Source of the DNA: Argopecten irradians
Lineage: Eukaryota; Mollusca; Bivalvia; Pectinida; Pectinidae
NCBI RefSeq assembly: GCF_041381155.1
Contig: NC_091146.1
Span: 3,014,733-3,078,732 of the forward strand
Direction: 5' to 3'
DNA: 64,000 bases
Shown here: piece by piece, positions 17,655 through 50,384 of the stretch
Layout of the letters: each line of letters starts with the position of its first letter
Position numbering within the stretch: the first letter of the stretch is position 1
Made by a program: the position numbers and the translations under genes
Notes under the pieces: generated by a model
What the model saw: only the letters and a program-made list of their open reading frames with translations
Told to the model about the DNA's origin: nothing
The model's database searches: none

Positions 17655-18632
17655 TACTGGCTGGCGACATATTATCGTGAAAAAATAGCGATTTTTCTCG
17701 ATTTTTTTCTAAACGTTGTATTTAAATTTAGATTTTTAGAGTTGTAAATAAGCTTTAGTCCACAACACTTTAAATAAATAAGCTTTAAGTGAATTTATAT
17801 GATATTTTACAATAAACACAGCCCTTTGAAAAAAGTCGGTCAAATAGGTTTTCGTGTCATTTTACTGAACATATTATCGTGATTTTTTTCAAAAAAATAT
17901 TAAAAATAGTTACGTGTGATGGAATAAATTAAATTTGGTATCAACATAAAGATAAACATTTGAACTATTTTTAAAAAAATAATTGATGTAAAAACTGCGT
18001 TTCAAACGAGAGAAAACGTGTATTGTTTATAACATGTCAAATCGTTAGATTACGCTGACAGGGGAAATGAAGAGGTCGCCATTTACCAATCTATTTCTGG
18101 CAAAATGACAAATATTTCTCACATGTCTGTATAAATTATTAGCATTCTGAATAAATATAAAAGATATTTGAATGATTTCTGATGGTGATTAATTCTTTAA
18201 ACAATAAAATAGCAAATCAAATCGGCATTGTTTACTACCTTGTATTTTGTCGTCTGGTCAAAAGCGCTTGAGTGACCCAGATAAGCGTTCTTTTCTAAGA
18301 TTGAATTACCTCCCTTATAACATTAGTTTTTTGAACGCTGTTGTCTGTCATCAGAGGAAGCAGATGATATATAAATCGGGACTATTATCTTAGAATAAAG
18401 CCGATATCATGCATTCCCCTGGGCTTATGTTGTACTTGTAAGGTAAGATTTACTGAAATTTGGTATTTTTATGTTAAAAATTAAATTTTCTTCTAAATTT
18501 GAAAATATTGTTGGTAATTTTGGTAGGTGTCATCTTTCTAAACACAAAACCGTTTAAAAATCGCATTCAGTGCAACCCGCCAATCAAAATCACGATAATA
18601 TGTTCTTCACGATAATATGTCGCCAACCAGTA
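17655..18632. mobile_element. TA-flanked MITE with subterminal repeats
   Basis: Inverted ends of 26 bp with one mismatch (17655-17680 and 18607-18632) include TA at each edge and then CTGGCTGGCGACATATTATC. The inner motif acatattatcgtga is repeated at 17869-17882 on the left and, inverted, at 18590-18603 on the right. About 978 bp, AT-rich, no coding capacity. The TA duplication suggests a Tc1/mariner-type transposase acting in trans. Confidence 0.85.
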
Positions 18633-18811
18633 TTGTTTCGTTATTATGTCTAATTAAATGTTAAATGTATCTCAACGTCTCTGTCGTCATTTCATAGTCC
18701 AGCTTACAAATATCGTCCAATATACCTAACGAAAGATCCCAAAATAAATTAGTCTAGGGATAGGTTGAGCGGAATCGTCTTTGGACGTCGTCTGTTTCGT
18801 CTCCGCCCCAT

Positions 18812-18876
18812 AGGAGATTTCAGAAAAGATGGCGATGACGTCACAGAAAGTTTACATCCGGGTCCTCAAAGGTACA
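18812..18876. repeat. Left terminal inverted repeat of the ISL2EU element
   Basis: 65 bp, inverted at 35425-35488. It contains a perfect TGACGTCA (18836-18843), the consensus cAMP-response element, and extends toward the start of the transposase gene about 80 bp on. Confidence 0.9.
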
Positions 18877-18958
18877 AGTCCGGGAGCCGTATATATAGAA
18901 CATGGTGGATTCCCAGCCGTAGGCCAGGGTCATGTTTGTTTACATTTGATTATGAGCT

Positions 18959-21745
18959 ATGGTACGTCAGTCGTGTGCTATTGGGCCATGCCCAGAGAAA
19001 ACATACAAAAAATCGGAAGGTGTCACTTTCCTCTACATGATAAATGTCAAAGATAATGACTTAAAGCGAGCGTGGAAAGACCGAATATTGAACACTAGAA
19101 AAGATGTCCGCTCTCGGGACGAACTCAACCATGTTGCTATCTGCAGTAGACATTTCAAGGATGGAGACCCATCTAACATCCCTACTATAATTCCAAAGAT
19201 TCATGGAGGTGAGGTTGTTTGGCCTGAGACAGAGAAGCCACGGCCTAAAGTTATTCGCCGAGCGCTAGATTTTAATGACAGTGCATCGCCGCCATCTTCG
19301 CCGCCCGATGTTGAATCCGAGCCTCCGCCATCACTTACGCCTAAATTTAAATCAGAATTACAACAGAAACTGGACCAGATACGCACTGTGATGACAGAAA
19401 GTCCCCCTAAAATTGTAAGCATTTTTTGTTTCATGTATATATTTATGTAAATCGAGTCACATGCTGGTTATTTTTAGGTGTACAGTCAGACACCTGTAAC
19501 CTGTTCAGTCGGTCTAACATAAAAATTGTACTGTAGGCCTAATGTCTGTCGAGACTGGGGTACATTAGGCATAGGCCTAGTATCTAGTTGTTTTTTAAAA
19601 TACCTTATTTTTATGCACAGTTCTTTTCATCATCGTGTAAGATTGTTTTTAACTATTTGTTTTCCAAAGAATATCTTTTTTTATCAGAAGGAAAGGGTAC
19701 ATTGAGTTACCCTCAAAAATGAGGGGACCTATTTGACATACATAATAATAATAATAACATACACGACTTAATTTAAAAAGCACATTATATTTTTGCATAT
19801 GCATTAGAGCAAAGAGGGTTCAAACAGAAAAATACTGACAAATTTATTGGTAAGCAATGTATAATTGATTTAAAGGTATTTACTGAACAAAACTAAAAAA
19901 AATCAACAGTAGGCACACTTGCAAAAACAAGGTAATATAAGTTTGGAAACCACAATTTTCATAGCTACAGAAGGCCTAATTGATTTTAATTCAACAACAA
20001 TTAATTTGCAGTGTTTACAACATAAATATAAATATATATATGCAATACAGTTGAGTTGTTTTTTACATCTGATGTAAATCAGTTTATGGGATTGGCATGC
20101 ATATGAGTTCAAGATTATTTTTGGGAAATTTATACTGCTACTAATTATCTTATTAATAAATTGAACAATGAATTAAATCATGGCATGTATATATAATATA
20201 TACATGGGACATAATATATGCATGTGTAGATAATTTTACCACTCGTGTACATAGCATTAATTTCTTTATTTACTTTTTATAGGTGAAAGAGATTGAGAAA
20301 AGAAAAGCGGATGAGATAAATGAAATGACTCCAGCTGTAAAATCCATTTACAACCAGGTTATGACATCTGCGCACACATCTGTTATGCAATCTCCGCCTC
20401 TCAAAAAAAAACTTAAGTTTTTGAAGGAAAAGACTAACAAAGAGCCAGATGGGGTATGTTGAACTTGAACATTTATCAACAGCGATCTGATATAATGATA
20501 TAAAATGGAGCCAGATTTATATATCATTTTTACAAATATGAATGTTAATATGTTATCATGACTGATTTTGGGAATTTATTTACCCCTAAGTAAATTTCAA
20601 TCAAGATTACATACCGGTATTCATTCTGAAAATAAAATTGAACATCACCTACACATCATTATATAACAATACATTATTATTTCACAACTTGTTTTTTGTT
20701 AGTTCATTTTTTTTAATTTTTTTTTTTAATTGATCATCAGGTTCGACCTCATGTTTCCAAAAGCACGCCAAATGCCAAAGATTCTTTAATACAACATCTT
20801 AAAGACCTGCTGGATGTAGAGATGAGACAGAATGCAGATCTCAGACTTCAACTTCATGAGAAAATAAATGGGAATGTGTTTGGTATCGAACAATTTAGAT
20901 GTTCTCCTTGTGATATTCAGTTTTACACAGGAATGCCAGATTACTTAACTTTCTTGGCCCTATGTGACTTCTTACAACCAGAAAGACACAAAATGCAGTC
21001 ACTGTACTATGAGCGGAAAGACACAGATAGTGCATATGCTTTAAACCGAGGGAGAGACCCCATTCTCAGTATTCATGAACAACTGTTCTTGTACTATGCA
21101 GATTAAGACAAGGTCACAGAGAAGTTGACTTGGCTCATCGTTTTGAAATTTCCACATCAACTGTCAGCGACATCATCAGCAAATGGATCAAACACATGGG
21201 ACATGTGCTTACTCAGCTTCCAATCTGGGCGCCAAGGAGTCTCATCACTCGTCGTTTGCCACAAACCTTCCAAGACCTGGGTTACAGTAACACAAGATGT
21301 ATTATTGACTGTACTGAAATCTTCATACAGCAGCCTTCCTCCAACTTGGTCTTAAAAGACAGTGCTATTTAGTACCTACAAAAACCACCACACTGCTAAA
21401 GGTCTTGTAGCTATTGCACCGCATGGTCCTGTAACCTTTGTATCAGACTTGTATGCGGGTTCAGCAACAGATTATGATATGATCACCAAGGACTGTGGGT
21501 TATTGAATCTAATTCAGGAGGACGACCCACATCATGGCAGACAAAGGGTTTGAGATCCAAGACTTGTTGGATCCTCTTAATGTACGGGTGGACCACCCTC
21601 CTATACTGCGAGGTGTGCATCAAATGAGTATTCAACAAGAAACCTCCACCAGTACGAATCGCCAGGTTACGCATACATGTTGAAAGGGCCATAGAGAGAA
21701 TAAAAAATTTCCGGATTCTGCAGGAAAATTTTCCATATAAACAAT
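18959..21745 (+). pseudogene. THAP-domain DDE_Tnp_4 transposase, three exons
   Basis: Exon 1 (18959-19414) holds a THAP zinc-binding domain: C-x4-C (SCAIGPC), a Trp (RAWKDRI) and CSRHF, about residues 5-64, then a Pro/Ser-rich linker. Donor TT|GTAAGC. Exon 2 (20283-20453) is Lys-rich and probably coiled. Exon 3 starts at 20741 with VRPHVSKS. Both junctions are phase 0. Exon 3 carries QFYTGMPDYLTFLALCDFL, a transposase helix-turn-helix (HREVDLAHRFEISTSTVSDI) and the catalytic core: IIDCTEIF (first Asp), FVSDLYAGSATD (second Asp) and HVERAIERIKNF (Glu). From about 21087 on, the frame changes at least four times, so it is a recently decayed gene. It would bind the element ends and cut and join DNA in the nucleus. 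Confidence 0.85.
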
Positions 21746-21790
21746 GGAGAAGCTGCTGAATTGACGTATTGTGGATAAAATATGGTGCCA

Positions 21791-21797
<7 letters not shown>

Positions 21798-21847
<50 letters not shown>
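21798..21847 (+). repeat. Poly-A run of about 50
   Basis: An uninterrupted A tract just past the transposase 3' end, either a homopolymer expansion or the tail of an unrecognised insertion. The poly-Phe frames seen opposite it are artefacts. Confidence 0.8.
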
Positions 21848-21850
<3 letters not shown>

Positions 21851-22565
21851 ATTTTTTTCCAGCACGAAAGTCTTGATTGTGATGACACTAATTTTACATT
21901 TTTTGGATTTATATCAAGCTTGATACCTACAGTGATTCCTTCTGATTGGAATAATTCTATTTGAAACTTTGTACATGTCATGGAGTATACCTGTGGACTA
22001 AATGGCACATGGTGGAGATATCCATTTTCCCCCATTATAATCATAGATATACAACGGATCCCAGGGACTATAACATGCAATTAAGTGTTTGTTTATTGAT
22101 CATGTCACAAAGGTAACCATACAATTCTTGATTCTTGCTAAACTGCAACCTTTCCACATTGCTTTTAAATATGAAGTATCACATGACATTTTAATATATT
22201 TATATTTATATTATTACATCTGATAATGATCATGAATTACACAACATCATTTAATGATACATATGAAATAAATAGATGAAATCACAATATAAACTAAGAT
22301 GTACTATATAGTAGTAATTCTTGGAAGACCAGAATATAATAACCTTGGGTTATTTGGAGAAATGTCATCTGACATTAAATAGTTTAGTATTTATATATAT
22401 GTTTATATTTTAGTATTTTACTTGCAAGTTTGGTGCAATTATTTATGATAGAATTCTAAACTTATAATAATCTTATGTTTGTTGACTGTTCGATATTAAC
22501 AATAAAATAATTCATGCCTATATACTTTCATTTTCTTGTTTGTTTTAAAACCATGTATTCTGTAT
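21848..22565. other. AT-rich transposon interior
   Basis: Inside the ISL2EU element; no gene recognised. Confidence 0.4.
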
Positions 22566-22746
22566 TTGCATATTACAGAGTTATCTGCCCTTGTGGATTG
22601 GTTAAGATTGTTATGTCATGTTTGTATGAGTGCAACAACACATTTTTCAGTGCAAAATGATGGAATTTTTGCTATCAAAATAATGATGTGACAAACATAA
22701 TATATTGAAACTTATACCTGCAAGGGCATAACTCTGTAATATGCAA
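22566..22746. mobile_element. Short hairpin MITE
   Basis: Inverted ends ttgcatattacagagttat (22566-22584) and its complement (to 22746) followed by CTGCCCTT/AAGGGC enclose about 180 bp. No coding capacity. The target duplication is not clear. Confidence 0.65.
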
Positions 22747-24145
22747 GGATGGTATACCTTCATGTAATGAAACCATTGTTTAAGCTTCCACATTTATTTT
22801 ATTTGGCTTACCAGTAAATATTTATAAGCTATATCTGCTAGTATATATTTTTTATAACCTATTATATAAACACATTGGTGTCATTTAGGTCAGGCCATGC
22901 TTATATACATGTATATGGAAGCTCGAGCTTGAGGTTGATGATGAAAGAATTGAAAGCAGGAGAACCAGAGAAAAGCCACAAAACATCTATCAGTACCAGA
23001 TCACTGGATTTCAAACTCAAAACAACCCAGAGTGTCACTAAAAGAAAAAATCAAAGTACTGAAAGTACTAAATGGCTCGGTCTCGATATTAGGAGGAATA
23101 TATTTCTAAGGTCAATACTACTGTAGTTTTGTACAATAAGAAATAAATTTGGCTGGTGTTCCTTCCAGTTTGGACTTTTGAGGATTCCTTGGACACCAAG
23201 GTGTAAAATAAGAGACACATACTAAAATCTTGGAAGCCCATTCTAATATTTCCTATGATGTTATATGTCAAATGATTTTATAACACCTTTAGCATTTTCC
23301 TTGTTAATTTGATGTTAATGAAAATATCCATTCTTAATGACTATTGTCATCAAGTTCCTGGGACCACAGTATCAGTTAACAAGTATTGTTTTGCAGCAGA
23401 GAAAGACAAGGGGCATACTTTTCTATGCCAAAATGTCTTAAATATGGAATATATCTGTCCTCTAGAAGACTTATCAATATCACCATGTGATTTTTGAATA
23501 AATTGGTCAATTGGTATACTTTTAACAAGTTTTGTAATTATTCTTTTGTAAAACAGCAAGTTGATTGATATACATTGTATCCGAACTTCAATTCAAACCG
23601 GATAACTTGTTAGCTCACCATAGACCATGAAATTGTTTGTACACTTTCTTAACTTCAGGATCGTTTTACAAAATTACAAATGAATTTTTCTACAACATTT
23701 TTTATTTTCAAATCCCCATACCTCTGATGAGTAAAATAAAACTGTCATTACAAGTGAATCAAATATTTTCAGTTTAAGATGAACAGGAAGAGATACATTC
23801 CTTTATTTCTTATAAACAACAAACACCGATTTAATTGTTTGTTCAGCAGGTTTTTCCCCTTTCTTTAAAAACGCTACCACTAACATTATTGTCTGTACCT
23901 AGATATGTAAACAATTCTTATAAATCTAATTCTGTATTCCATAACATCAACTGGTGTTGTGGTACCGATTTACGTCTTGAGAATATCACAATTTTTATCT
24001 TTCTGATATTAAGTTCTAATTTCCATGTTATGCAATATTGTTAAAATTCATGTAACACTTGTTGTAGACCATCAGATATTTCTGATATCATAACAGTGTT
24101 ATTGGCAAATAGTATGATAAAAAGTTTGGGATACATTCCAATATC
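22747..24145. other. AT-rich transposon interior with one weak frame
   Basis: An 83-codon plus-strand frame (22875-23126) is Lys/Ser-rich and follows an AG, but has no recognised motif. I see no other gene here. Confidence 0.3.
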
Positions 24146-24660
24146 ATTATACCGTAAAAACTGGTTTAATTTTGCGCAGGTAATTTTTAGGGCTGAAAAT
24201 GCTTAAAAAATCTACTATCAGTATATTTTGCGCATCAACAAAATGGGGAAAACAATGTCCAGGGAGTCCCAAAACCGATGTATGAAGGTGACAATTTCAA
24301 TGCAAAATATTCCCCATAAATGCTTGACAACTTGCACAAAAAGTGTTGTATTTAGAAGAAATAACATATGAAAACCGCATTGTGTTTGTTTTCTTTTATT
24401 GGTCACCGTAACCTGAAACTGAAATATCTAGCAGATGTCCAAAACATTGGCGGTCTGGTCCGCCGTACTCCGTGCACATGTCAATGTTTTGAGATATTAC
24501 ACATGAATAGTAATCAGGAATATTTGAAAAGAGTAGAATATATTTACTTAAATTGGCACAATAAGTAATTAGTGTGTTTGAGATCATTAACAATCAACAG
24601 CAACCAGCTAGCGGATACGTAGTTTAGCTTGCAACAATCACAGTGTGCATAATTTGTCAA
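24146..24660 (+). repeat. Dispersed ~500-bp repeat, copy 1
   Basis: Aligns by eye along its length with the reverse complement of 37427-37975. Shared blocks include accgtaaaaact, aatgcttgacaact, tgtatttagaagaaataaca, ccgccgtactccgt and gtgtgtttgagatcattaac. Divergence is moderate. Short frames in it are not convincing genes. Confidence 0.75.
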
Positions 24661-24764
24661 GATTTGTAAGACAAAATATTCTTTTCCACCAGGTAAGATT
24701 CTAAGTCATAAAGGTAGATTGAAAAAAGGAAGGGAGATAAAATAACCAGATAAATATTTGTTGC

Positions 24765-24850
24765 GGGATCAGACTGGGTTGATTATCGGCGATCAGGTAG
24801 CTCAGTCGGAAGAACTACATTTTCTTCTCTCCTGTTACAAAATTGGCACC
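24765..24850 (+). repeat. tRNA-like SINE head, deleted copy
   Basis: Contains gatcaggtagctcagtcgg (A box) joined directly to the downstream part ctacattttcttctctcctg, lacking the B box present in the sister copy at 24925-25050. Confidence 0.6.
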
Positions 24851-24924
24851 CAACTAAATAACCAACGGTTGTGGTGTTTTAAAGGGTCTCGTATGTATTC
24901 AAAAAAAGAGGGAGGAGTGTAGCG

Positions 24925-25050
24925 GGACTGGACTGGGTCGATTATCGATGACCAGGTAGTTCAGTCGGTAGAGCACTCAGCTAATGTTCGGAGAGTCCCG
25001 GGATCGAATCCCGGTCTTGCCGCTACATTTTCTCCTCTCCTGTTACATAT
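24925..25050 (+). repeat. tRNA-derived SINE head
   Basis: A box (tagttcagtcggtagagc) and B box (gggatcgaatccc) are both good. The acceptor-stem halves do not pair, and the unit continues into ctacattttctcctctcctg as in the copies at 24765 and 53585, so it is a SINE head and not a tRNA gene. Confidence 0.7.
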
Positions 25051-26030
25051 GGTACCATGCATGTAGATATTCAAGGTAAATCAATAATGTTCGCTGATCT
25101 TGCAGAATTGCCTTACAGTGTTATAATGAATGCAGTAAATGTATGTTTCATTGGTGTGATTGATTTAAAGGCAGTTCATGTGGTGACCGAAAAAAAAGGT
25201 AAAATCAATACTTTCAGAGTGATCAGGGAACATTGATAGTCAAGGCGGGGAAAACATAAGACGACCTGTGTTATACAAATAATGTTTAATTGATATTCAT
25301 TAAATTGTCTCGAAGGTGATGATTAGTGTGTTATGAACGATAAGCTTAATATGTTTTTGACAAAAAGTATTAACAGCTAATGTCATATTGTGTTTTAAAT
25401 TTAAATAATCTTTTATTTATTCATTTCATTTCAAGCATGTACATGTCATAGAATATTAACAAATATCAGGTATATGCTTAAATCATATTACAGTTAAATT
25501 CACAATAAGGAATTTGAAGATGATGATAGTAATTATTTTCGGATTGAAAATCATTACAATATTAAGCTTCCACAGTTGAAAATTACTTCTTTTTGTTCAC
25601 ACAATTCTTCTCCTAGACTGTTTCCAGTTGAAATGATACATGCATGCTGACATTCTGTAAACATAAGGAAACAATAAATGTATTAACAGAGTAATTACTG
25701 AAAAGGCTAATATCATATAATTAAACATTTTAATCATAAATAGCAATACCAGCATAGAGGAAATATCATTGAAGTTTAATTCCCGCTGTTCTTCAGTCCT
25801 CCTGTTCTTACATGTAAGAGTTTTTGTCCTTCATAAATTGATTGTAATATACAGTCTATTGCCGTTGTTATATAATGTGCACAAAGAAGTATAAATGCAC
25901 ACGTATGCATGGGTACAGTGGTAAATTAATAAGTTATACAGAAAATGATGGTGCGTAAAGTCTATTTTGTTGAGTAAAAAGTTAAAAAAACTAACATTGT
26001 TCACACCCTAAGATGTAATCGCACTAAAAA
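25051..26030. other. AT-rich transposon interior
   Basis: Nothing recognised. Confidence 0.4.
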
Positions 26031-26034
26031 CAGT

Positions 26035-26400
26035 GATCATGTGGGCATTTGAAAGACTGTGTCAGGTGGTAGAGATTAGTTCCGCTCGAGTGATCACACA
26101 ATGCAAGTGAGAGTCGGGAATATGTTTATGTAAGTTTTAATTGCTAATCTGTGATGCTTGTTGGTAAAATATAACTCAGGATAATTGCTAAACAATTAAC
26201 AGTTTTCTCTACATTTGTTACAGATTGAAACAGCTTTTTAAGTGCCGTTTTACGGAAGAATTATGAAGAAGAAATCGGCATTTTCGTCGATCTAGTACTA
26301 GTAGTCCAAAAAATATCACTTCGAGTTATATGAACATTCCACATATGATTTATGTCATTCGGCCAAAAATTTATACTTCGTATTACCTAGTTTAATGAAT
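26035..26400. mobile_element. Tigger/pogo-type non-coding remnant
   Basis: Diverged copy of 52850-53240, the terminal non-coding part of the Tigger-like element. Shared blocks include caggtggtagag, gagtgatcacac, ttgctaaaca, aaatcggcattttcg and cttcgtatta. No transposase is present here. Confidence 0.65.
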
Positions 26401-27576
26401 ATGCTGTATGTATATGATCAGAACGTCAAGCTCCTGTGGTGAAAATAACTAAAATGTTTTAAAAGTATGGTTTAGTGGTAATCTCTGAACGTGCTTTAGT
26501 ATATAGATATAATCTGATATTTATACATGTGCTTATAAAATTATCGATAATAATGGATGTGGTAAATATTCATACCTTATTAACTGCCGTTAGTTTTAAG
26601 ATTACGCCACCTTGGACATTTACAAAATGTTCACCGTCTGTCACGTGCTATTTTATCGGTAGTCCAAGTTTGTCCAAAATTTTGTTAGAGTTGTCTTTCT
26701 TCCATTGTGGATTTACACGTACATGTGGCATAACGCAGCCGTGATAAACAAATCTCCATATCGTCCTGAAATATATTTGCTCCCGAACTAATGTGATTCA
26801 AAGTGCAAAAATCATTATTGTAACAATTTTAATGTTTGAGGTGAAATATAGATTTCATTTTTTCCGTTGCGGGATAATTGTCATTAGTAGGGACTAAACG
26901 CATGGGGCGAAGCGAAACATTTTCGGGACGAAACGTCTTCATGTATTGAAAACAACATTTTCGGGACGAAAAGTCTAGATACATTGTACACAATTCAAGC
27001 GAAGATTTCCAACCTAAGATCATTTGGATGATGTATATGTTAAGGATATGAAAGCAGTAATCTACTATTCCTATTTCAACATTACAGATACGCTTATTTC
27101 AGTAACTTTCATATTCAAAATTTGCTATTTAAAATTCCCGGTAAAATCAAAGTTGTTGAATACACTGCCGCTAGGAGCGCTAGTATCTGCGAGCAAGTTC
27201 TTAGCCAATCATATTGAGGAAATTGACTGTAAGAGAATTTTGCAACCACGATCACAATGGCGAGGTGACCCTCGCCAAAAACTGCACCATGACACAATCT
27301 TGTAAGATTATGCATATGGTTAATGGTTATGTAATTATTTTTCATTATTTATGTATAAAGTCCTTAAATAAATATCATGCTGAATTTCTTATATAAGAAC
27401 TTACATTAAAAGAAAAGAAAATCTTAACTTATCTTCATAGTATATGAAATTCATTCTGAACACTTCTATTGTTTTGTATGTGTAAATGTTCAAAAGAACT
27501 ATGGTACATACAGTAGCCAGTCTACATAAATCACAGTTCTTTATACACATGTACATTTAACAATTCAAAATGGCAT
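26401..27576. other. AT-rich transposon interior
   Basis: A 15-bp string cattttcgggacgaa occurs twice (26918 and 26956). No gene recognised. Confidence 0.35.
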
Positions 27577-29233
27577 TCAATCTTCATTCCTTGCCAGCAA
27601 AGGCAACATGTATTCGAAATAAAAAGATGTCAGTTTGGGGAAAACTGATGACCAAAATGTTCTGTTACGCATTACTCTCTGAATAGCCATTCCAACAGGA
27701 GTCCACACAACCAAGTCACACCACTCCACATCACACACAGCAAGTTGTCCTTGGATTTGGTAATAGTAGGAATGGTCCTCCTTAATTTTCAACTGGCCAT
27801 CATCAAAGTCATAAAAACTGTCGGGCATACATGATGCCTGCTCCGGTGTGATGTCAGAATATTTAGATAATGATTTCACTTCCACCAAGCCTTGGAACTC
27901 TGTGCCTGTCTTAGAAGTCAAAGAAACGAAAGCATCTGGTGATGCACCCAAATAGGGGAACTGAGGATTGACAACCAGACCTAAATCTTGCGTGACAACA
28001 GTAAATCCTTCTCTAGTCTTCTCACTTTTGTACTGCGCCAATGCCACACCTTCTGCTTGATGTCCCCCCATGCAGTATGCGCTGACTGGAACTGTTTTGG
28101 CTTCGACAAACTGGTGACAAACTTCTCACAGGGATATTTCCTTCGATTGCACACTTTTTTGAAGTTTGATGCAGTAATTCTCTTACACCTCTCTTCCATC
28201 CATTTCTTTGTCTTTGCCTGGCCCTTTGTTTTAGTTGAAATGTCCATTTGATGGGATATGTCTTTAACACAAACATTCCTTTCATAAAACATGTGCTGAT
28301 CTGGCGAGACAGAATGTTCAAGATTGAAACGTGTTTTCACATGATCAGAGCGCTTCTCTTCTACTGCATGTTGTGTTTCTGTACTTTGTGTTGGACACTG
28401 ATAAGCAGGCTGATGACAATTGGCATTCAGGATTTCTGTAAATTGTTCTGCTACTCCAAGGGCAGATAAGTAACTAGAAAATGTTTCAATTTCCTCCTCA
28501 TGAACACACAAATCTTTCATCAGGACACGATGACAGATTTTTATAGTCTGTCTTCTGTTTCTTAATTGTAGAGCAGTCATTCTCTCTTTCAAAATTGAAA
28601 GACTCAAATGCTAAGTCTGAAAACCTGATGCATGTCCGTCCTTTTACTTTTGGTTGATGCCATGTTTGTAAATTTGACGTCTTTGATCCTCCTTTTGGTG
28701 TAAATTTATAGCCTTGTCGTTGACTGTCCATTACGTGGAACAAAACTGCTGCAACATGTTTGCAGTACCCACCTAGGCCAGCTTTGCAAAAGCATCGACC
28801 ACCTAGTATTGTCCCTGAATGTTTATCACAGCAAACATAAGTGAAGTAATGTTTCTTTGTCTTGCCTGTTATAATCCCTCTGTCAAATGATGCTTCTACA
28901 TTTCCTCTAAGCAGTAGAACGCTGTCATCAATGTCCATCTTGAATTCTGATGATATCACTTTACCAGACTTAAAGAAAGTCCATCCAGTGTCTCTGTGTT
29001 TTTTGGCAGTAGCGCTGTTGTCATCACATTTTACCAAGAAGTACTGATGGATGTCACCGTCATCTATGAATGGAACGCCATCAAGGTAGGAAGTATATCC
29101 TGCAGGTGGTGGATGAGATTCCAAAAATGAGCTGTTGTTCTCAATGGTAGCTTGGCTGTATATTTTCTTATTGTGTCTATCTGGATGCACAAGGTATTTG
29201 GTGTCCCAACCATGCTGGATGTAGAACTTTACC
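27577..29233 (-). pseudogene. SWIM zinc finger and YqaJ-like nuclease exon (exon 2)
   Basis: Exon 2 begins after acceptor TTTTCCAG at 29234. The N-terminal half has a SWIM zinc finger, CxC-x6-CxH (CFCKAGLGGYCKH, 28794-28758). The C-terminal half is a YqaJ exonuclease domain: RITASNF (near 28181), GHQAEGVALAQY, GASPDAF (metal-binding Asp near 27936), LVEVK (the ExK motif near 27880) and YYYQIQGQLAVC. These are the expected residues of the PD-(D/E)xK fold. The frame changes near 28500 and again in a G6 run near 28068, so this copy is probably dead. In ISL2EU elements this protein accompanies the transposase; its role in transposition is not established. The alternative, a phage-type recombination nuclease of the host, is less likely given the enclosing inverted repeats. 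Confidence 0.85.
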
Positions 29234-29669
29234 CTGGAAAATATAAACATTTATTTTTATTAAAACTTAAAAAGAAATTATAATGTACTACAGTCAAACT
29301 TATTTATATATTTATACAAAGCACCAAAGGGGCAAAGAACAAAATTGTCTTTCAGGGATATGGCATCATATCAGATTCTACTGTATCAAACTCCCTGTTT
29401 ATATCACAAAAAGCTCTTCACTTAAAGCATAATGTGAAGAAAAAAAAAGTTTGTCTTTTTGAAATCAGAAATGGAATACTTGACTTCAGATCTGGCTAAA
29501 TGACCTTGAGCCTTGACCTGATGCAATGTTACTGACCTATATTGTCAGAGCCTTTGTTTATTTTCATTGCTTTCGATGGAAGATATTATATTATAATGCT
29601 CATAACTCTAAATTTAACCTTGACCTTTAATGTATGACATTGAATCCTTTTAATTAACTCATTATTTAT

Positions 29670-29893
29670 GGGTTTGGGTTTATTAGTTTAACGTCCTATT
29701 AACAGCCAGCGTCATGTAATATAATATAAGGACGTGCCAGGTTTGTCGGCTGGAGGAAAGCCGGAGTATCCGGAGAAAAACTACCAACCAGCGATCAGCG
29801 CTGGCAACTGCCCCATGTGGGATTCGAACTCGCGAAGTGGAGGGCTTATGGTAACATTTCAAGACATCCTAACCACTCAGCCACCACGACTCA
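29670..29893 (-). repeat. Full-length tRNA-derived SINE with target duplication
   Basis: On the minus strand it starts with a tRNA-like head (A box tggctgagtggttagg, B box gagttcgaatccc), then the core ttttctccggatactccgg and ctttcctcca, and a tail aggacgttaaactaataaac. A 10-bp target duplication CATTATTTAT (29660-29669) / CATTGTTTAT (29894-29903) has one mismatch. Complete and fairly young. Confidence 0.85.
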
Positions 29894-29903
29894 CATTGTT
29901 TAT

Positions 29904-31285
29904 AGTTTTTAACAACTTTGCTTTATAATGTTAGCATTAATATGTTAAATGCAAAAGTTTACTTTTTTCATAGTTAAAATCCAAGATTGCAAAAAATATA
30001 GACCACATGGGGTTAATTATCTTACAAAATTTGTGAACAAACACCAGACACATGGATGAATAGTCTGATAACTCGATACATGAGTGTGTATGTGTGTGCG
30101 CGGGGGTAATTTATATATCACTCATTCAGGGTGCTATCAGCTTACAATTTATTCCAGCATTCCATGCTAATGATTGAAACCACAGTTAGTAAGTTTTAGA
30201 GATAAATAATAGAATCAAAGTACTGAAAGTACTCATAGTCAGGCATGCCTAGCGATATAGGTCATATATACACGTAGCATTAATAGGTAATGTACTACGG
30301 TAATACTTTTAATTTCCTCATGCTTTTATCAATGTAGTCAGACAAGTCAACAAAATCATTCAATAGTGTTCTTTTCACATTTGATTATCTTATACTAAAA
30401 CAATATGCCGAGTGTTAATAAAATATCTTTGATATCATTCAATATCAAATACGGGGTACTGTTCATTTAATATCCTTTACAAATAAGAATTCCCATAGGC
30501 ACAGTAATAGCTGATGGAGAATTAGAGATTTTCATTGCTGTTTTTATCAGGTCATGTGGTGGTCAAAATTTGTGACAATAACGGTTAACTTCTTGTATCA
30601 ATCACACAATGTTTCATTATATATTGTAGCATTCACTGCAGTTGTGATAGAGGTAACTTTATGGAATGTACATGCAAGTATTTAATGAACAATTAACACT
30701 ATTATTTACACTAATAGTTTTATTACAAAATTTGAAAAAGATACTGTATTGTCGTGGAACATTTAAGCAGATTATCATCATGAAACACATTTGTATAATG
30801 TAATACAAAATGAATTTTAAGATTTCACTGTTATTGCTGAATCATCTTGCGATGAAATAAAATCATTAAAGCTAAGAAAAAAGTTCAACATACATTTTGT
30901 TATCATGTCAGTGAGGCTATTTTACATGTTCATTGGAATGTTATTGACAACACATTGCTAGTTATGTTAAATTGAGGTAACAATTGCAAATAAAAAAAAG
31001 ATCTGTAAATTCCTACAGCTCAAGAGAGTGCGGTGATGCAAAAACTGGGTATGTTCCAGCTTTTTGAGAACAATGAAAATTTTTAAAAATGTATATTTTT
31101 TCTGCCATTCAACAGAAGTTAATATCCAGTGATTAATATATGTTTTACTTGTAATTTTACAAATTGAAAATAACACAAAAATCTTATTTTGCATAAGGAA
31201 ACCATATCTGTTTAACTGTAAAATTCTATTAAATGTTAAACATAACAATGCATCTCTGATATACTAGTTACTACACATGCAGTAT
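29904..31285. other. AT-rich intron DNA
   Basis: A 15-bp string tagtcaggcatgcct at 30237 recurs inverted near 33600. Nothing coding is seen. Confidence 0.35.
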
Positions 31286-31289
31286 CCAT

Positions 31290-31830
31290 TTTAAATCATC
31301 TATCGATTTCAACACTGATATTATCTATTATAAATCATGTACTGACTTCAATACTTGTAGTATCCAACATCTAATGATTTCTACGCATTATTTGTCAAAC
31401 ATAAATCATCTACTGATTGATTTCAACACTTTCTTCTATTAACTTCTATACTAACATAAATCATCTACTGATTTCTACACTAGAAGTATCCATCATAAAT
31501 CATCTGCTGATTTCTACACTAGAAGTATCCATCATAAATCATCTGCTGATTTCTACACTAGAAGTATCCATCATAAATCATCTACTGATTTCTACACTAG
31601 AAGTATCCATCATAAATCATCTGCTGATTTCTACACTAGAAGTATCCATCATAAATCATCTACTGATTTCTACACATTAAGAATCCATCATAAATCATCT
31701 ACTGATTTCTACACATTAAGAATCCATCATAAATCATCTACTGATTTCTACACATTAAGAATCCATCATAAATCATCTACTGATTTCTACACTAGAAGTA
31801 TCCATAATAAATCATCTACTGATTCATCCT
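31290..31830. repeat. 39-bp minisatellite
   Basis: About thirteen units, the central ones nearly identical (ctactgatttctacactag and aagtatccatcataaatcat). The left units are degenerate. Because 39 is divisible by three a repeating 13-residue frame appears, which I regard as non-coding. Confidence 0.9.
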
Positions 31831-32500
31831 AGATGTCAATTCTTATTGTTTTTCACAATATTTAGGAAAGTAGGTCACACTGATCTAATTTTACAAAATT
31901 CTTGTTCGGTATGTTTTGGTCATCCCAGATATCAATTCTTATTGTTCTATAACAATATATAGAAAATTAGGTCACACTGACCTAATTTTGCAAAATTCCC
32001 CTTCACCATCTATTGGTCACCCTAAATGTCAATTTTCATTGTCCTGTGGTAATTTTTAAAAAAGTAGGTCACACTGACCTAATTTTACAAAATTCATGTT
32101 CGTTGTGTTTTGGTCATCCCAGTTATCAATTCTTATTGTTCTATCACAATATGTAGAAAAGTAGGTCACACTGACCTAATTTTACAAAATTCATGTTCGG
32201 TGTGTTTTGGTCATCCCAGATATCAATTCTTATTGTTCTATCACAATATGTAGAAAAGTAGGTCACACTGACCTAATTTTACCAAATTCATGTTCGGTGT
32301 GTTTTGTTCATCCCAGATATCAATTCTTATTGTTCTATTACAATATGTAGAAAAGTAGGTCACACTGACCTAATTTTGAAAATTCGAAAATGCAAGATCA
32401 GTAAGTTTCGCACTCATCTCAGATATCAATTTCTTTGGTCCTATGATAATATTTAAATATTAAGTATTATTTAAATTTAATGTACTAACAATGACCATAT
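31831..32500. repeat. 97-bp tandem array with ERE-like palindromes
   Basis: Six units at an exact 97-bp period, each with AGGTCACACTGACCT. Five copies are perfect (31969, 32066, 32163, 32260, 32357) and the first (31872) has one mismatch. The palindrome equals the consensus estrogen response element AGGTCAnnnTGACCT. Units also share atcaattcttattgttcta. Confidence 0.9.
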
Positions 32501-32533
32501 TTTGTTTGTTGTTTCTCCTGAATGTCGTTTTTA

Positions 32534-32840
32534 GGTCACCTGAGACGAAGTCTCAGTTGACCTATTCTTGTCGTCTGTTGTCCGTCGTCGTGCGTCAAAA
32601 TATTACAAGGAGTCAACTTATTTTAGGTGTATAGGTTCCATAATAATTGGATCAATATATAAATTGCCACAAGATGAATTTGCCCTTGCTTTCTCACCTT
32701 TCAGTGTGCTAGTTTCATATGGCGGCGGGGAGTTTATGTCTTAGATATTTTCTATTTTTTTTTTTTTTGCACTTTGTTCTTTATTTATGCATCAGAACTC
32801 AGGTGACCGGTAAGGCCCTTGGGCCTCTTGTTATTGTTAT
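32534..32840. mobile_element. Short pearl-like element without tandem core
   Basis: Begins with a hairpin aggtcacctgagacgaagtc, then tccgtcgtcgtgcgtc, and ends with taaggcccttgggcctcttg. The end hairpins and the gtccgtcgtc block parallel those of the 2870-4970 element, but the 157-bp array is absent. Confidence 0.7.
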
Positions 32841-35238
32841 GCGACAATTTCAGAAAAATAGGTCACACTCATGAGTCATGATTATAGACGTCTTTCTGTG
32901 TTATAACTATTTTATCTATTGATCATTCAAAGATTCAAAGTAATGTCAATCAAACCAAACATAAATTCATTACAGGTTTTACATTTAGAATTTTAAAATT
33001 TGTTAACATTTACTACACTTATGCTAAAAAAATGTGCTATGCCTCATGTTGTCTACAAAGTCTGAAAAAGACATTTGTCACCAACCAAATTTTATCAGCA
33101 ACTTAAAGCTCCAGGAATGTTAAACTGGATAGGAACCAGTGTAAACAGGTACACCGGAATAAGTAAAACAATACACACAAGCATGTGCGTTTGTCACTTG
33201 GCCTCCAATGTAACAGTACACGAGGCGCATTAATCTGAAGCCGTTGTCTAAGCTATTCACAGGCTCCATTGGCGGAAAAGCGAAAACAATTACCAGTATA
33301 TGGTTTTATTTCAGGGAGGGAAATTGATCAGCCATTTCTTATCTGAAAAAGCACGGATATTTGGCATATCTTTGATAAAGACAAATCAAAGAAAAAATAA
33401 CTTCTACCTAAAACTTTCATTTTGATTTTCATACATTTTTCTTCCGCATTGAATGATGCTGACTATAAAATACAGCTTCGAAATCACTGAAAAGCCAGGG
33501 ACTATCTTCAGCAGCGCATTGATTTCACTGAAGGTAGTAAAAGGCAGTGAAAGTATTTTTCTCAAATGGTCGCTATGCCTATAGTCAGGCAATGCCTAAG
33601 GCATGCCTGACTAAAAATTGAGTATTGTGTAACTAGAAAGTATGGAGTCTGTTATAAAATGGAAAAGTGGATTAGGTCTGTATGTATAACTGTAGAAATA
33701 TATATGACCTCCCCCAAACCTCCATCCCCCCCCCCAGGGATTAATATTGACATGATTTAAATTGCCAGGTACTTTAAAATGTGAAAAGCAATATTTCTTC
33801 ATTTAGTGCAAATTCATCTTGATATATAAGTAACAACCTTAATTTTTGTTATTTGCACAAAATCACAAATTTTGGTACAAATTCTGTAAATCTAAGACAC
33901 CAATAATCCCCTAGGAATCAAATCAATAGTTTTATATAAGGTTGAATAGTCCATTTCAGTTTTTTGCTTCAAGAAATTGGGATGATGCGAGGAAAACTAA
34001 TCCCTTCCTACACTTCAATTTTAAAGGATGTTACCAAAAACAAGTATATATATATATTGTTTGGCCTAAATATCAAAGAAACACAATATATATTGTTTGG
34101 CCTAATTTAATATTTGAAATGAATTAAATTCATTTATCAATGTAATCAAAATCATCTTATGATAGGATTGAAATTCATGTGATTATCTAAATATAAAGAT
34201 TATATTAAACTTAAGGATATAATATAATGTAAATGAAAATTACATGTAATAAATATACCAGTTTAATTCACCTGTATACTTATACCTGTCCCTTCAAGTT
34301 CATACATTAAAATAATATGAAATAAGAGCTTTGTTACATGCGACATGTAGTATATATAGGAGTACTTTTTGAAAATCTTTTCACGGACTGGTCATTGTAA
34401 TTTTTTTTTACATGTGTACATGCTTGGTGTACATGCTTGTTGTGCATATCAGTTCAATTATAAGACCTAAATTATGGCAAAATAATTACATGTCAGACTT
34501 AAGGTCATTATATATCTATATATCAAACACTTTTCCAGGCTGATTCTTGGTATTAAATTTAATGTCATTTGTAACCAGATTTTTAACCAAGCATGAATAA
34601 AAATACTAACTATGTATCTGCGGGCGCCCCTTAATCCTCCTAGGACCTAAGGCTAGATTATCTGCGACTAGACTGATTTTTTTTGCGGTGTTATTTAAGC
34701 TGTCAAACATGTTTTCGTTTGACAATATATGTTATATGTGTGTGTGTTTGTGTGTAGTCTGCAGTCGAATTGCGGCCATAATGCCTTGAGAATCCATTCT
34801 CGCCATAGGCCTATATAATTGCACGAGTACAAAAGGCCTAGGCCTATACTTCCCTGACTTTTCAAGCAAGATTTTATTATGGAACATCTTCGATCAGAAG
34901 ATGTATTTTATTCACGAAAATTCGTGTGTAGCCATCCAAATACACATGCGATGTCGAGAATGGGTACTAGGCGAGAAATGGTCGTCAGCCATTATAGCCT
35001 ATGGGACTGTAAAAAAATGGACGGGCCGAGCCGCTACCTACTTTAAAAAACGTATTCTAATGAACTGATTTCAATACCAGACTTGCTATCCAGAATATTC
35101 TCGTAAATACCTTTCTTTTTGAAACATATTATTCTTACAGGAAAACACATATTTTCCGATTATTATGGACGATTATAATGCATAAGTGATATACACGCGG
35201 TACACACGTGTACTGCAGTATACACCTGCAAGTCGGGC
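32841..35238. other. AT-rich intron DNA
   Basis: Contains a hairpin caggcaatgcctaaggcatgcctg near 33588-33611, a direct repeat tatatattgtttggcctaa (34050, 34088) and a TG run near 34738. No coding exon recognised. Confidence 0.4.
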
Positions 35239-35242
35239 CTAC

Positions 35243-35418
35243 CTTTCCACTAATTCTGCCTTTTTTCCTTTTAAACTTGCTCCACTTCTGCAACGTAGCC
35301 ATTGTAAAAGAGCTGCTTTTGTAAGATGTTCTGGTTGTTTTCCCCTAAGCGACGCTCCGGGTATGTCATCTTCGTCGAAAGTAGCGAAGTGTTTGGTAGT
35401 GTTTACATCTGTCGCCAT
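35243..35418 (-). pseudogene. SAP-domain first exon of the YqaJ gene
   Basis: The ATG at 35418 starts MATDVNTTKHFATFDEDD and leads into a SAP motif, HLTKAALLQWLRCRSGASLK followed by GKKAELVER, the helix-extended-loop-helix DNA-binding signature. The donor AAAG|GTAGGC follows and fits the phase of the SWIM exon at 29233. An upstream in-frame ATG at 35466 lies inside the terminal repeat; I prefer 35418 because the extra residues merely translate the repeat. The exon itself is open, but the gene is broken in exon 2. Confidence 0.75.
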
Positions 35419-35424
35419 TGCGGT

Positions 35425-35488
35425 TGTACCTTTGAGGACCCGGATGTAAACTTTCTGTGACGTCACGCCATCTTTTCTGAAATCTCCT
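35425..35488. repeat. Right terminal inverted repeat of the ISL2EU element
   Basis: 64 bp, inverted match of 18812-18876, with TGACGTCA at 35458-35465 about 40 bp upstream of the SAP-exon ATG, a position suitable for promoter function. Confidence 0.9.
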
Positions 35489-36131
35489 ATTCTAGATATT
35501 TATCTAGATCATTTTTCTCCTGACAACTTGGGGGCTCGTTCCGGGATATTTTTCATGGGTAAATTGTTGGACTATGAAAGTGACTACAGGTGTTGTATGT
35601 TTATATACCTATGCATTAGAATATATAGTGTGATATATTTGTATAGGTGTAGGTAGTCGGCGTATCATGTCACCTCTCTACCGGAAGTTAGACATGAACC
35701 CTCAGTAGTAGCTGTAGACTAGCTGATAGCATTAGAGAATCATAACAGACAGTCAAAATAGGTCGGATTGTATAATATTTATTATGCTATTATTCTGAGG
35801 GTCAGGATAGGTTGGGCATATTATTATCAATTGTTATTTTGCACTAGAGTGTAGGTTAGTTGCTATTGTAAGCTATCATACTGGACAGGGTACATGTATA
35901 CAGGTCTATTTATAGAAATACTGTGGATTTACTGTTATTCTAGACAGGGTAGAATAGGTCGGGTAATATACACAGATATTTTAGAGATATTAGGATTAGC
36001 GCACAAAAGTGTTTGTGTTCAAAATTCCAGAATTTGTGAAATTTGGATATTTTTGAGTAGAATCATCATAACCGTGATTATTTGTGGTTTATTGTCCATA
36101 CTCATATGGTGTAAGCGACTGGAAATATACC

Positions 36132-38602: not shown

Positions 38603-39060
38603 ACAGACCTGCTAATAAGAGAGTAGTTTATCCAAGCGTGTTCGTCAGGCATGGCACTTTTCCTCAGGGAGAGAGCACCAAAGGATGCTCGGGAGTTAAC
38701 ACGACTAGCTGAACAATATATGGAGGCCCATGGAGGAAATATTGGGAAGTCTAGCAAGGCCACATACAACTCGAGTAAGCCGAACCATCAAGTACGTAAT
38801 AATAACCCCCAGCAACAGAAAGCGAATGACAAGACAACAGAAGTGAAAGGTCAGAGGACACGACTCTGTTTCATTTGTGGAGGTGAAGGTCATATCGCGA
38901 GAGATCATTCAGATGGAGGCAAGATAGGATCAAGGCCTAACAAAGGTGGTCAGAGTAAGGACACAAACAAGGCAGCACTTTGTAAATCTACACAGAAGGA
39001 CAGGGTAGTAACAGATGATTGTATTAGGAGTGAGATTCACAGTAAGAAAGATTCAAGCAC
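38603..39060 (+). pseudogene. gag region of the Ty3-like fossil, second part
   Basis: Continues gag with RERAPKDARELTRLAEQYME and a zinc-knuckle segment (CFICGGEGHIARDH, near 38868-38910). Part of the fossil described at 35491-40163. Confidence 0.65.
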
Positions 39061-40120
39061 AGCGATAATGGGACGTATACGACTGGAAGACAGAGATGTA
39101 ACACGCTACTGTCGATCTTGCGATATATGCCAAAAGACAACTCCGAAGGGCAGGGTGACCAAGGTACCGTTAGGAGAAATGCCATTAATTGAGGAACCAT
39201 TCCAACGGGTAGCGGTGTATTTGATTGGTCCGATTTATCCGGCATCGGAGACTAAAAACCGTTACATACTGACAGTAGTGGATTATGCCACTAGGTACCC
39301 TGAGGCTACGGCATTACCAAAGATTGAGACAGAGAGGATAGCAGAAGCGCTCATGGAAATATTTTGCAGAGTTGGTTTCCCGAAGGAGATACTTAGTAAC
39401 AGAGGGACACAGTTCACCTCAGGACTCATGGAGGAGGTGTGTAGACTGGTGTCAGTCAAACAATTATTCACAACGCCTTACAATCCCAAATGTAACGGCT
39501 GGTGTGAGAGGATGAACGGAGTTCTGAAGAGCATGTTAAAGAAGATGTGTCAAGAACGACCAAAGGATTGGGACCGATATATCCCTGCAGTATTGTTCTC
39601 TTACCGGGAAGTCCCACAAGCGAGTACCGGATTCTCATCGTTTGAACTATTGTATGGGAGAACAGTTCGCGGGCCTATGCAGGCGTTAAAAGGAATCTGG
39701 ACAGATGAGGCTAACGAGAAGTCTGAAACGAGGAATACTTACCAGTATGTTCTCAACCTTAGAGACAGGTTAGAAGAAACCTGCAAGATAGCTAGAGAGT
39801 TTACGTCAATCACAAGGATCGCACAAACATCACTACGACAAGAAAGCTAGGAATCGGCAACTTGAAGTCGGACAGAAAGTACTGGTGTTATTACCTACTG
39901 ACAACAACAAACTTTTGCTTCAGTGGAAGGGGCCATTCAACATAGTGGAAGTTGTGAACCAAATGAACTATAAAGTTGAGGTTGGTGGTAAAGTGAAAGT
40001 GTACCATGTGAACTTGCTAAAGCATTATGTTGAAAGAAAGGACAGCAAAGAACAAGAGGAGACAAATAGTGAAGCATCAGCATTGTATCCGATATTACAT
40101 AAACTTGCGAGTCTTTCTCA
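39061..40120 (+). pseudogene. Integrase region of the Ty3-like fossil
   Basis: A zinc-binding tail (CRSCDICQKT), the integrase core (YILTVVDYATRYPEATALPK; GTQFTSGLMEEVCRL; TPYNPKCNGWCERMNGVLKS) and the downstream FELLYGRTVRGPM and KGPFNIVEVVNQMNYKV segments are all recognisable. This is the catalytic and C-terminal part of a Ty3-type integrase. Fossil; not expected to be functional. Confidence 0.8.
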
Positions 40121-41755: not shown

Positions 41756-42569
41756 GGTAACCCAAAATGTGTTAATCTTGCCGAAACTTGTTAGAATAAC
41801 GGCAGAATACTTAATTTTTAACAAGTTTCGGCAGGATTAGCATATGTGCTTTTTTATTCAGTATTAACCCTTTATATTAAGACTTTTCCTCAGAATTCCA
41901 ATTCGATTAATAAAATTAAGTATTTCTGCCGTAAAATTAAGTATTTTTCTGTCCGCCGTGGGTCGTGACGGCTGACGGCCGAATAACAGAGGGTATCAGT
42001 CACAATTACCCAACTTCGTTACGTGCACGGCTATTTATTGCTACATTGTCGGAGGTTGGGAATCGCCAAACTTTTCCGGATGCGACGGTGAAATTAACAG
42101 ATTCGGCGATAGAATTAAGAGTTTCTGCGTTTATATTCAGTGTTTCTGCGTTTATATTCAATGTTTCTGCGCTAATATTAACACATTTCGTCGCTTACAT
42201 CGAGCGGGCGCGCCGAGCCGTGACGGCCGAGCACACGGCTTACACAGGTAAACTTTACCTTGTGAAACGAGACTTACAGTACGTACAGCCGCCAGCCGAT
42301 TGTACCTGTAAAATAATTATGTTTACAATTCTCTTTTCCCCTTTAAAAATACATATATCCTCATTATCCTATTCTCCTATATTTTGTTGTTTTCTTTCCC
42401 GCGTCTCGTCATTTGAGCTATGCATTTTGCACCTTTTTTCGGAAGAGTTCCGATACGAGCGGTAACAAATGAATAACTGTCTAGGTTATGTGTAAAATAT
42501 GTGTATATACACGGGGATTAACTATGACAAACAAATTACAGTTGGTAGTAGACTAAAGGTTACACATTG

Positions 42570-47520: not shown

Positions 47521-48632
47521 AAATAAATACTGGAATTACATGCAACAAAGTACATCAAATATTACCAGAATATGATATCGGTCGTTTAATGTATATCAAA
47601 TCAATTCAGCAAACCTGAAAAGCAGATCATTATGTATAACACTTAATCAGCATTTTACAATTAAAGGCAACAGCAAAATATCTTTCAAAACGTCTGTAAA
47701 TAACAAATATTTATTTATTTTATGGAAAACGATCTTATTTTAATATCGTCAACAATTCAAATTTGTGAGAAGAATATACATACATGTAATTGCACATAAT
47801 CAAACACATAATTTGTTTGTCATAGTTAATCCCCGTGTATATACACATATTTTACACATAACCTAGACAGTTATTCATTTGTTACCGCTCGTATCGGAAC
47901 TCTTCCGAAAAAAGGTGCAAAATGCATAGCTCAAATGACGAGACGCGGGAAAGAAAACAACAAAAGATAGGAGAATAGGATAATGAGGATATATGTATTT
48001 TTAAAGGGGAAAAGAGAATTGTAAACATAATTATTTTACAGGTACAATCGGCTGGCGGCTGTACGTACTGTAAGTCTCGTTTCACAAGGTAAAGTTTACC
48101 TGTGTAAGCCGTGTGCTCGGCCGTCACGGCTCGGCGCGCCCGCTCGATGTAAGCGACGAAATGTGTTAATATTAGCGCAGAAACATTGAATATAAACGCA
48201 GAAACACTGAATATAAACGCAGAAACTCTTAATTCTATCGCCGAATCTGTTAATTTCACCGTCGCATCGGAAAAGTTTGGCGATTCCCAACCTCCGACAA
48301 TGTAGCAATAAATAGCCGTGCACGTAACGAAGTTGGGTAATTGTGACTGATACCCTCTGTTATTCGGCCGTCAGCCGTCACGACCCACGGCGGACAGAAA
48401 AATACTTAATTTTACGGCAGAAATACTTAATTTTATTAATCGAATTGGAATTCTGAGGAAAAGTCTTAATATAAAGGGTTAATACTGAATAAAAAAGCAC
48501 ATATGCTAATCCTGCCGAAACTTGTTAAAAATTAAGTATTCTGCCGTTATTCTAACAAGTTTCGGCAAGATTAACACATTTTGGTCATGTACTGCATCCC
48601 CTTAAGAGAACTGACTGCAGTCAAAGCATGGA

Positions 48633-49820: not shown

Positions 49821-50146
49821 CTATCACTACCAGCTCCCATTGTTAATTTAGCTGGGGACCACTAATTAATGTAGAAGAACATGGAAAATTGAACCTTGGT
49901 CTCCAGCGAAAAAAATCATAGAGGAAACCCAGGTTTAAATCCTGTTCCAAGTTTTCAACTTAGGTGTACATGTATTTTACCATTCTCCATATGAATGTTT
50001 TGTAGATGTTAGAAATATAAAAAAAGTGATCTACGTGTAGTATTGTGCCGCCAGCCAGGTTTTAAACCGCAACCTGGACTTCCTGGTTCACTGCTCAATC
50101 ATTGGGCTAAATGGAAATTCCCACTTAAGCAAAGCAAGAAGGTGAC

Positions 50147-50355
50147 TGGGTGGTCAGATGGTGTAGTGGTTAAGCAAGTCGCATTTCATCCAGCCGGCCA
50201 GGGTTCAATCCCCGGTACAGACGTAAAAAGGTCAGGGGTCACCTACCTGATCACATGGCTTTTCTCGGGGCACTCTGGTTTCCTCCCACTCTAAGACCCC
50301 ACACGCTTTCATCAGAGCCATTGAAAGATGGTGAGACTAGTATTGACGATTAAAT
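50147..50355 (+). repeat. tRNA-derived SINE (unit 1)
   Basis: A box tggtgtagtggttaagc, B box gggttcaatcccc, core ttttctcggggcactctgg and tttcctccca, then a short tail. Its 3' end abuts the broken Tigger transposase at about 50356. A tRNA-like head in the opposite orientation (ggtttaaaacc) lies just left, near 50050-50110. Confidence 0.75.
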
Positions 50356-50384
50356 GTGTACTCTACCGGCATCGTTTTGGGTTC

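Follow-up and report, generated by a model that had tools for sequence, protein, structure and literature searches.

A long ISL2EU-type transposon of the bivalve Argopecten irradians, inserted in a long terminal repeat and bearing nested Helitron-like elements

We analyzed a 64,000-nucleotide stretch of the Argopecten irradians genome (positions 3,014,733 to 3,078,732 of the forward strand of contig NC_091146.1, RefSeq assembly GCF_041381155.1; hereafter the window, in whose own coordinates features are given), which holds a 16.68 kb element that a first-pass annotation had described as an ISL2EU transposon with intact ends. The explanation that best accounts for all the observations jointly, and in which we place high confidence, is that an ISL2EU transposon of the PHIS superfamily was inserted into the long terminal repeat (LTR) of another element, received two nested rolling-circle elements of its own, and was probably duplicated in part to a second contig, here called C3. 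It would thus be a case of a cut-and-paste element made long by nesting, not by its own cargo, for which both an empty site and a sister copy are known. The portions of PMC4482050 that define ISL2EU list an AT target duplication, terminal inverted repeats (TIRs) of 6–259 bp, a transposase with DDE, HTH and THAP domains, and YqaJ in a separate open reading frame (ORF); the window element shares each of these with the published family. Within the literature collection searched, no paper joins ISL2EU with a nested insertion.

Insertion into an LTR and the ends of the element

The genome searched was the window's own (846 Mb in 1,508 contigs). An AT at both ends is weak evidence of a duplication when taken alone; hence, the two flanks were joined across a single AT and searched genome-wide. 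Here, as in the searches with the joined flanks of the Helitron-like elements and with nested elements A and C described below, 34–40 candidates were scored, so that the counts are lower bounds. Among the 41 matches listed, seven run uninterrupted over positions 21–442 of the joined query at 94–97% identity, four of these paralogous sites being exactly of the query's length, and an eighth site is found at 79%. As these uninterrupted sites carry one AT, insertion with duplication of the AT is demonstrated, bearing out what the first-pass annotation had claimed. A further feature of the same list is that 19 matches pass the junction to end at position 247–248, and each of the seven sites has a same-strand partner ending at 235–248, about 5.5–8.3 kb downstream. 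Such an arrangement is what a 5′ LTR plus leader, followed by a 3′ LTR, would produce, and the target is therefore an LTR: the ISL2EU element was inserted 35 nt before the end of an LTR belonging to a multi-copy LTR element. The features at the two borders are:

18618–18811 (+): portion of the host LTR to the left of the insertion, with the AT duplication at 18810–18811 as its last two bases; at least 37 other matches start from 18620 or later; LTR pairs
18812–18877 (+): left TIR, 66 nt, from the end alignment
35424–35488 (−): right TIR, 65 nt, from the end alignment
35489–35525 (+): AT duplication, then the remaining 35 nt of the host LTR, where the 19 matches end (joined position 247–248)

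The TG at 18618 was taken by eye as the start of the LTR, and a stretch resembling a primer-binding site was likewise seen by eye after 35525. A frame at 38627–39847, downstream of the insertion, matches the rve integrase domain.

With the AT included, positions 18810–18877 and 35490–35424 align at 98.5% identity with one 1-nt gap. The inverted ends, annotated earlier as 64 bp, are thus real, near-identical and intact, their proper lengths being 66 and 65 nt, which lie within the range given for ISL2EU. After the AT they start with AGGAG, so that the GG that usually comes first in ISL2EU sits one base in.

The end is a genome-wide repeat: its 30-mer occurs 515 times at up to two mismatches, compared with no occurrence of a reversed control. 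Scoring the best 40 of 1,170 candidates gave 41 end matches and 29 other end loci, the latter being the best matches, with two of them (L019 and L020) overlapping. All 29 begin with ATAGGAG, preceded by T in 21 and A in eight, and the short relatives among them show A or T after the AT in eight of eight readable loci. Their interiors resemble the window element near the ends only. Past the TIR, this resemblance reaches up to 99 bp at 88–97% for the YqaJ end; a facing far end lies inside the fetched stretch in 21 loci (none does in the other eight), and in 14 of those 21 the THAP end shows resemblance over up to about 150 bp at 71–77%. Nine of the 29 are complete by our length rule, measuring 902–1,567 bp, with a mutual identity of 82.0–99.7% (median 88.7%, gaps excluded). 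The fetched stretches of the 29 loci contained neither of the two genes of the window element.

These short elements, which resemble miniature inverted-repeat transposable elements, are like the window element in their terminal 67 nt (98.5% identical to the window end in the best matches) and in the adjoining ends; they differ in their length, in their unrelated middle and in the absence of transposase and YqaJ genes from the fetched stretch. Judged by sequence, such gene-less end loci present the usual picture of non-autonomous relatives, and as the ends are shared, the short elements are likely passengers mobilized by a transposase of the window type. The genome search with the end and the comparison of interiors that had been proposed earlier thus recovered many end copies, and those we inspected lack these genes. 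The first-pass annotation had counted copies with ends unrelated to the genes as evidence against itself; that situation appears at first sight to obtain, but the similarity extends beyond the TIR, as befits non-autonomous relatives.

The two genes and their reading frames

Both convergent genes claimed by the first-pass annotation are present on opposite strands, with introns bordered by GT and AG:

18959–19414 (+): transposase exon 1, THAP domain (Pfam THAP, E = 9e-6), with a GT donor
20283–20453 (+): transposase exon 2, with AG/GT borders, in frame with exons 1 and 3
20741–21890 (+): transposase exon 3, HTH and DDE domains (HTH_Tnp_4, 8e-12; DDE_Tnp_4, 3e-9), frame broken in the assembly
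21752–22189 (no strand): insertion-rich patch that includes a run of 50 A; the comparison with C3 gives 40 insertions, 0 deletions and 13 substitutions
27580–29233 (−): second gene exon 2, SWIM domain (7e-4) and YqaJ nuclease domain (2.6e-7), frame broken in the assembly
35243–35418 (−): second gene exon 1, with a GT donor and a proposed SAP motif that lacks Pfam support

The THAP, HTH_Tnp_4 and DDE_Tnp_4 matches each lie above the Pfam cut-off on the window's own frames, in line with the THAP-DDE transposase annotated at first pass. In a spliced model that takes the homologous exon of C3, they reach 3.4e-5, 1.1e-14 and 1.2e-39, respectively, each again clearing its cut-off, and the D, D and E motif words fall at residues 399, 444 and 520. 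The end of exon 3 (21890) is approximate, lying as it does within the damaged patch. For the second gene, YqaJ is above its cut-off on the window frame and SWIM 0.1 bit under; the model with the homologous C3 exon gives YqaJ at 8e-15, Viral_alk_exo at 9e-6 and SWIM at 0.002, again under the cut-off. SAP scored 0.055 with Pfam on its own exon, and the spliced model produced no SAP line at 0.01. Thus, the THAP-HTH-DDE and YqaJ domains are supported, SWIM is weakly so, and SAP is unsupported; of the SAP-SWIM-YqaJ architecture put forward earlier, the nuclease stands, SWIM stands less firmly, and SAP falls away. The ISL2EU identity and the pairing of a transposase with a YqaJ gene, also proposed there, agree with the Pfam domains, the ends and the AT duplication alike.

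A protein search of the same genome gave 151 DDE and 150 YqaJ matches. The pairing count took in 128 of the former and 149 of the latter, the window's second DDE row being deliberately excluded; among 22 DDE rows outside the count, a YqaJ row lies within 15 kb solely for that second row of the window. A YqaJ match is found within 15 kb of the DDE match in 95 of the 128 rows (81 convergent, 14 divergent), and the pairing is therefore common in this genome. Among the convergent pairs, the median gap is 1,246 nt; that of the window is 6,199 nt and the next is 2,564 nt, apart from one of 14,581 nt, which probably reflects a wrong partner and was retained in the counts. The 14 divergent pairs, with gaps of 107–998 nt, show that relatives also come in another gene arrangement.

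The single close gene-bearing relative among the listed matches is on C3 (98% and 93% identity for DDE and YqaJ), where the corresponding frames are open over 369 and 539 amino acids; the other listed DDE and YqaJ rows show at most 50% identity, save for one 61-residue YqaJ fragment at 75%. Compared with C3, the 1,010 nt of transposase exon 3 up to 21,750 differ by two substitutions and five indels, and the 1,654 nt of YqaJ exon 2 by three insertions and no substitution; in addition, 51 nt of the YqaJ exon are missing in frame from C3. Such a dominance of indels with few substitutions can be left by unpolished long reads, which favors error: the patch at 21752–22189 is probably unpolished sequence, and the frame breaks suggest sequence error more than decay. 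That both genes are truly dead, their frameshifts being real mutations, we regard as unlikely. Frameshifts do occur in both: at least four indels disrupt the frame of transposase exon 3 ahead of the patch, and two disrupt that of the YqaJ exon; neutral decay would, however, yield mostly substitutions, and indels prevail in the comparison with C3. The earlier statement that the element has both of its genes accordingly holds for their presence, with both frames broken as assembled. Two intact ORFs, as expected of a potentially active ISL2EU element, are thus wanting in the assembled window; its membership in the family is unaffected.

Nested Helitron-like elements and the C3 copy

Two pieces of the element, element C where the 3′ ends of the genes face each other and element A within the YqaJ-gene intron, are multi-copy repeats in their own right:

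23051–27276 (+): nested Helitron-like element C, 4.23 kb; at least 22 other near full-length copies at 93–99% identity; 3′ hairpin
30215–33612 (+): nested Helitron-like element A, 3.4 kb; at least five near full-length copies elsewhere at 95–97% identity; 3′ hairpin
31455–31824 (no strand): 39-bp tandem array inside element A
31824–32385 (no strand): 97-bp tandem array inside element A
33730–34744 (no strand): intron stretch without a C3 counterpart, 1.0 kb, with a dispersed repeat at about 33826–34076

The first 19 nt of A and C are identical and have 1,046 genomic occurrences, as against 0 for a control; a 5′ palindrome lies four nt from the end, and the 3′ hairpins have z scores of −6.0 and −5.6. 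Beyond the two in the window, no further Helitron 5′ ends were found in the fetched loci at up to three substitutions. The joined flanks of one copy of the C family gave 42 listed matches, 41 of which span the junction (34 at 94–99%); the three empty sites that we read for it show an A-run target without target duplication, and place the 5′ end within the element's own sequence. For A and the window's own C the flanks are what was seen, the A/T-run target being taken from this C-family copy. Six frames in C and one in A had no Pfam match; weak matches to DUF2427 and Gemini_AL1_M in the frame over the 39-bp array were dismissed as a repeat artefact, as no stretch passed alone.

In their sequence features, A and C fit non-autonomous Helitron- or Helentron-like elements, a likeness that we claim without assigning membership. 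Parts of PMC4067079 describe Helentron-like non-autonomous elements with tandem repeats, and parts of PMC7492417 describe satellite-carrying Helentron elements of the Pacific oyster. With the HINE/DINE-1-like elements, as portrayed in those parts of PMC4067079, A and C share the lack of a target duplication, insertion at an A/T run, the 5′ palindrome, the 3′ hairpin and the absence of a transposon-protein match in the frames scanned; with the oyster Helentrons, as far as covered in those of PMC7492417, they share the tandem repeats, which lie inside A. They differ from HINEs, within the same portions of PMC4067079, in that no inverted copy of the 5′ palindrome was found 38–60 bp from the 3′ end, a search for the palindrome core AGTACT near the 3′ ends of both having been by exact match only.

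Autonomous ISL2EU consensuses have a mean length of about 4.84 kb in the data we consulted from PMC4482050, and the window element has 16.7 kb. By our own arithmetic, the two rolling-circle insertions make up 7.62 kb of its 16.68 kb and leave about 9.05 kb; this corrected length counts the A-run as target in the element borders, and slightly wider Helitron borders leave 9,042 nt. One might instead suppose a natively giant ISL2EU whose long introns and satellites are its own cargo and which moves as a 16.7-kb unit. The intact, near-identical ends at full length would suit such an element, as would the signs, discussed below, that C3 once held both Helitron-like pieces, so that the long form is not just the newest state. 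Nevertheless, both pieces are found, with unchanged borders, in multiple copies at unrelated sites, on which ground we reject a native giant element as very improbable. Moreover, removal of C brings the convergent gap down to about 1,970 nt, within the usual range, and C3, which shares the LTR flank, is not a second transposition. Among the listed matches there is no second 16-kb copy with an AT duplication of its own elsewhere, and we found no sign of movement after growth. Hence, nesting better explains the unusual length with internal satellites emphasized at first pass: the arrays exist, but they and most of the excess belong to the nested elements. Likewise, of the proposal that such elements grow or are colonized without losing their ends, colonization and the intact ends hold, while growth through its own cargo and movement of the long form are unsupported. 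In general, satellite arrays lying "inside" a transposon may belong to a passenger, just as broken frames may be sequence errors.

The C3 copy bears on the history of the nesting. C3 shares the right end and 13 nt of LTR flank beyond it, aligns with the window no further left than 19655, and lacks the left end and the bodies of both Helitron-like elements. The shared flank and the missing left end led us to reject an independent transposition, and C3 is probably, as its sequence indicates, a truncated duplicate of the window insertion. Relative to C3, the window has extra sequence at 23.05–27.28, 30.2–33.6 and 33.73–34.74 kb. As a young insertion the last of these was rejected, since its other listed matches (best 40 of 225) cover positions 87–337 of 1,001 only, at 73–87%; deletion in C3 is more likely than insertion in the window.

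Between the window and C3 there are 28 substitutions at 19669–20770, one elsewhere outside the patch, and two at the junction of C; these figures are those of a recount, a Fisher test having used hand-rounded input (28/1,109 versus 4/4,450). This sharp step relative to the rest of the alignment suggests recombination or conversion, and the left part of C3 may therefore come from another source.

At the site of C, C3 (loci L062 and L092) has the left flank, the first 8–9 nt of the Helitron and a right flank short of 8–9 nt; at that of A, it has the left flank, the first 9–11 nt and a right flank short of 13–15 nt, these ranges reflecting letters shared at the joints. The two sites both carry AATCAAAGTAC, and both losses start within the 5′ hairpin's first arm and reach 8–9 nt (C) and 13–15 nt (A) past the 3′ hairpin. 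As the empty sites of a related insertion are without this motif, the stubs appear to be remains, and C3 probably once held both elements. The converse, that C3 preserves an older empty state and that the elements later chose sites already resembling their own 5′ ends (TCAAAGTAC before insertion), could draw on the occurrence of that motif at both sites in C3; we consider it improbable, because the three empty sites of the third same-family insertion are plain A-runs devoid of it, an 11-mer is, by our estimate from base composition, unlikely to turn up twice by chance in 9 kb, and the short right-flank stretches absent from C3 are present in the window.

Given that C3 probably held both elements, their loss might have come about in two ways: through end-specific excision, for which the matching breakpoints speak, or through deletion during copying, for which the further losses in C3 speak. 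The usual view of rolling-circle elements is that they copy themselves and stay in place. That both were cut from C3 by a process linked to their ends, with a repeatable footprint left behind, is a tentative possibility that we hold to fall short of likely; for maize, there are reports of Helitron excision, as related in part of PMC10095026. These matching footprints are the part most worth following, and, if the possibility is true, this class of footprint gives a way to look for Helitron excision.

Several observations weigh against the explanation offered here as a whole. Neither gene is open in the window copy as assembled. SWIM and SAP remain under their Pfam cut-offs. The left end of the gene-bearing element is without a second close copy in the genome search: apart from itself, 18878–19654 finds a single match, of 82 nt at 79%, on another contig. 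The target at the window site is C|AT|T in place of the published preference A|AT|T, and its C before the AT sets it apart from the 29 other end loci, all of which have A or T there. Finally, two of the three joined Helitron flank pairs had no listed match, and the A-run target therefore comes from one insertion. The published ISL2EU features that we tested were otherwise all found, save for A as the first base of the TIR (AGG), the C before the AT, and the ORFs that are not open; besides its length, these are the points in which the window element departs from the family as depicted in the portions of PMC4482050 at hand. As A|AT|T is a preference and no requirement, we retain the element in ISL2EU.

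The course of events could be envisaged as follows. By analogy with the family, the THAP and HTH domains would bind the ends and the DDE domain would cut, excising the element at its 66- and 65-nt ends; it would then insert at an AT, duplicating it, with the SWIM-YqaJ nuclease-like protein assisting. Mobilization of the short elements with shared ends is probably due to this enzyme as well. The window copy entered the LTR of the multi-copy element 35 nt before the LTR's end, and it took up one rolling-circle element between the gene 3′ ends and another in the YqaJ-gene intron. Part of the locus would then have been duplicated to C3, where both rolling-circle elements were presumably lost afterwards.

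Other features of the window

Outside the element, two 777-bp inverted repeats (41762–42538 and 47809–48584) are 99.7% identical, with about 5.3 kb separating them; two frames scanned in this region (41941–42462 and 45937–47082) had no Pfam match, and the pair may perhaps mark another DNA transposon with long ends. A direct 1.5-kb duplication (49311–50800 and 50826–52305, 98.9% identical) is overlapped at 51893–52786 (−) by a frame for a CENP-B/Tc5-type transposase. Two further tandem arrays also lie outside the element, one of 12 copies of 157 bp at 2974–4868 and one of 11 copies of 64 bp at 60486–61203, and the frame 57712–58287 matches Pfam Transposase_21 (tnp2) at 1.9e-9.

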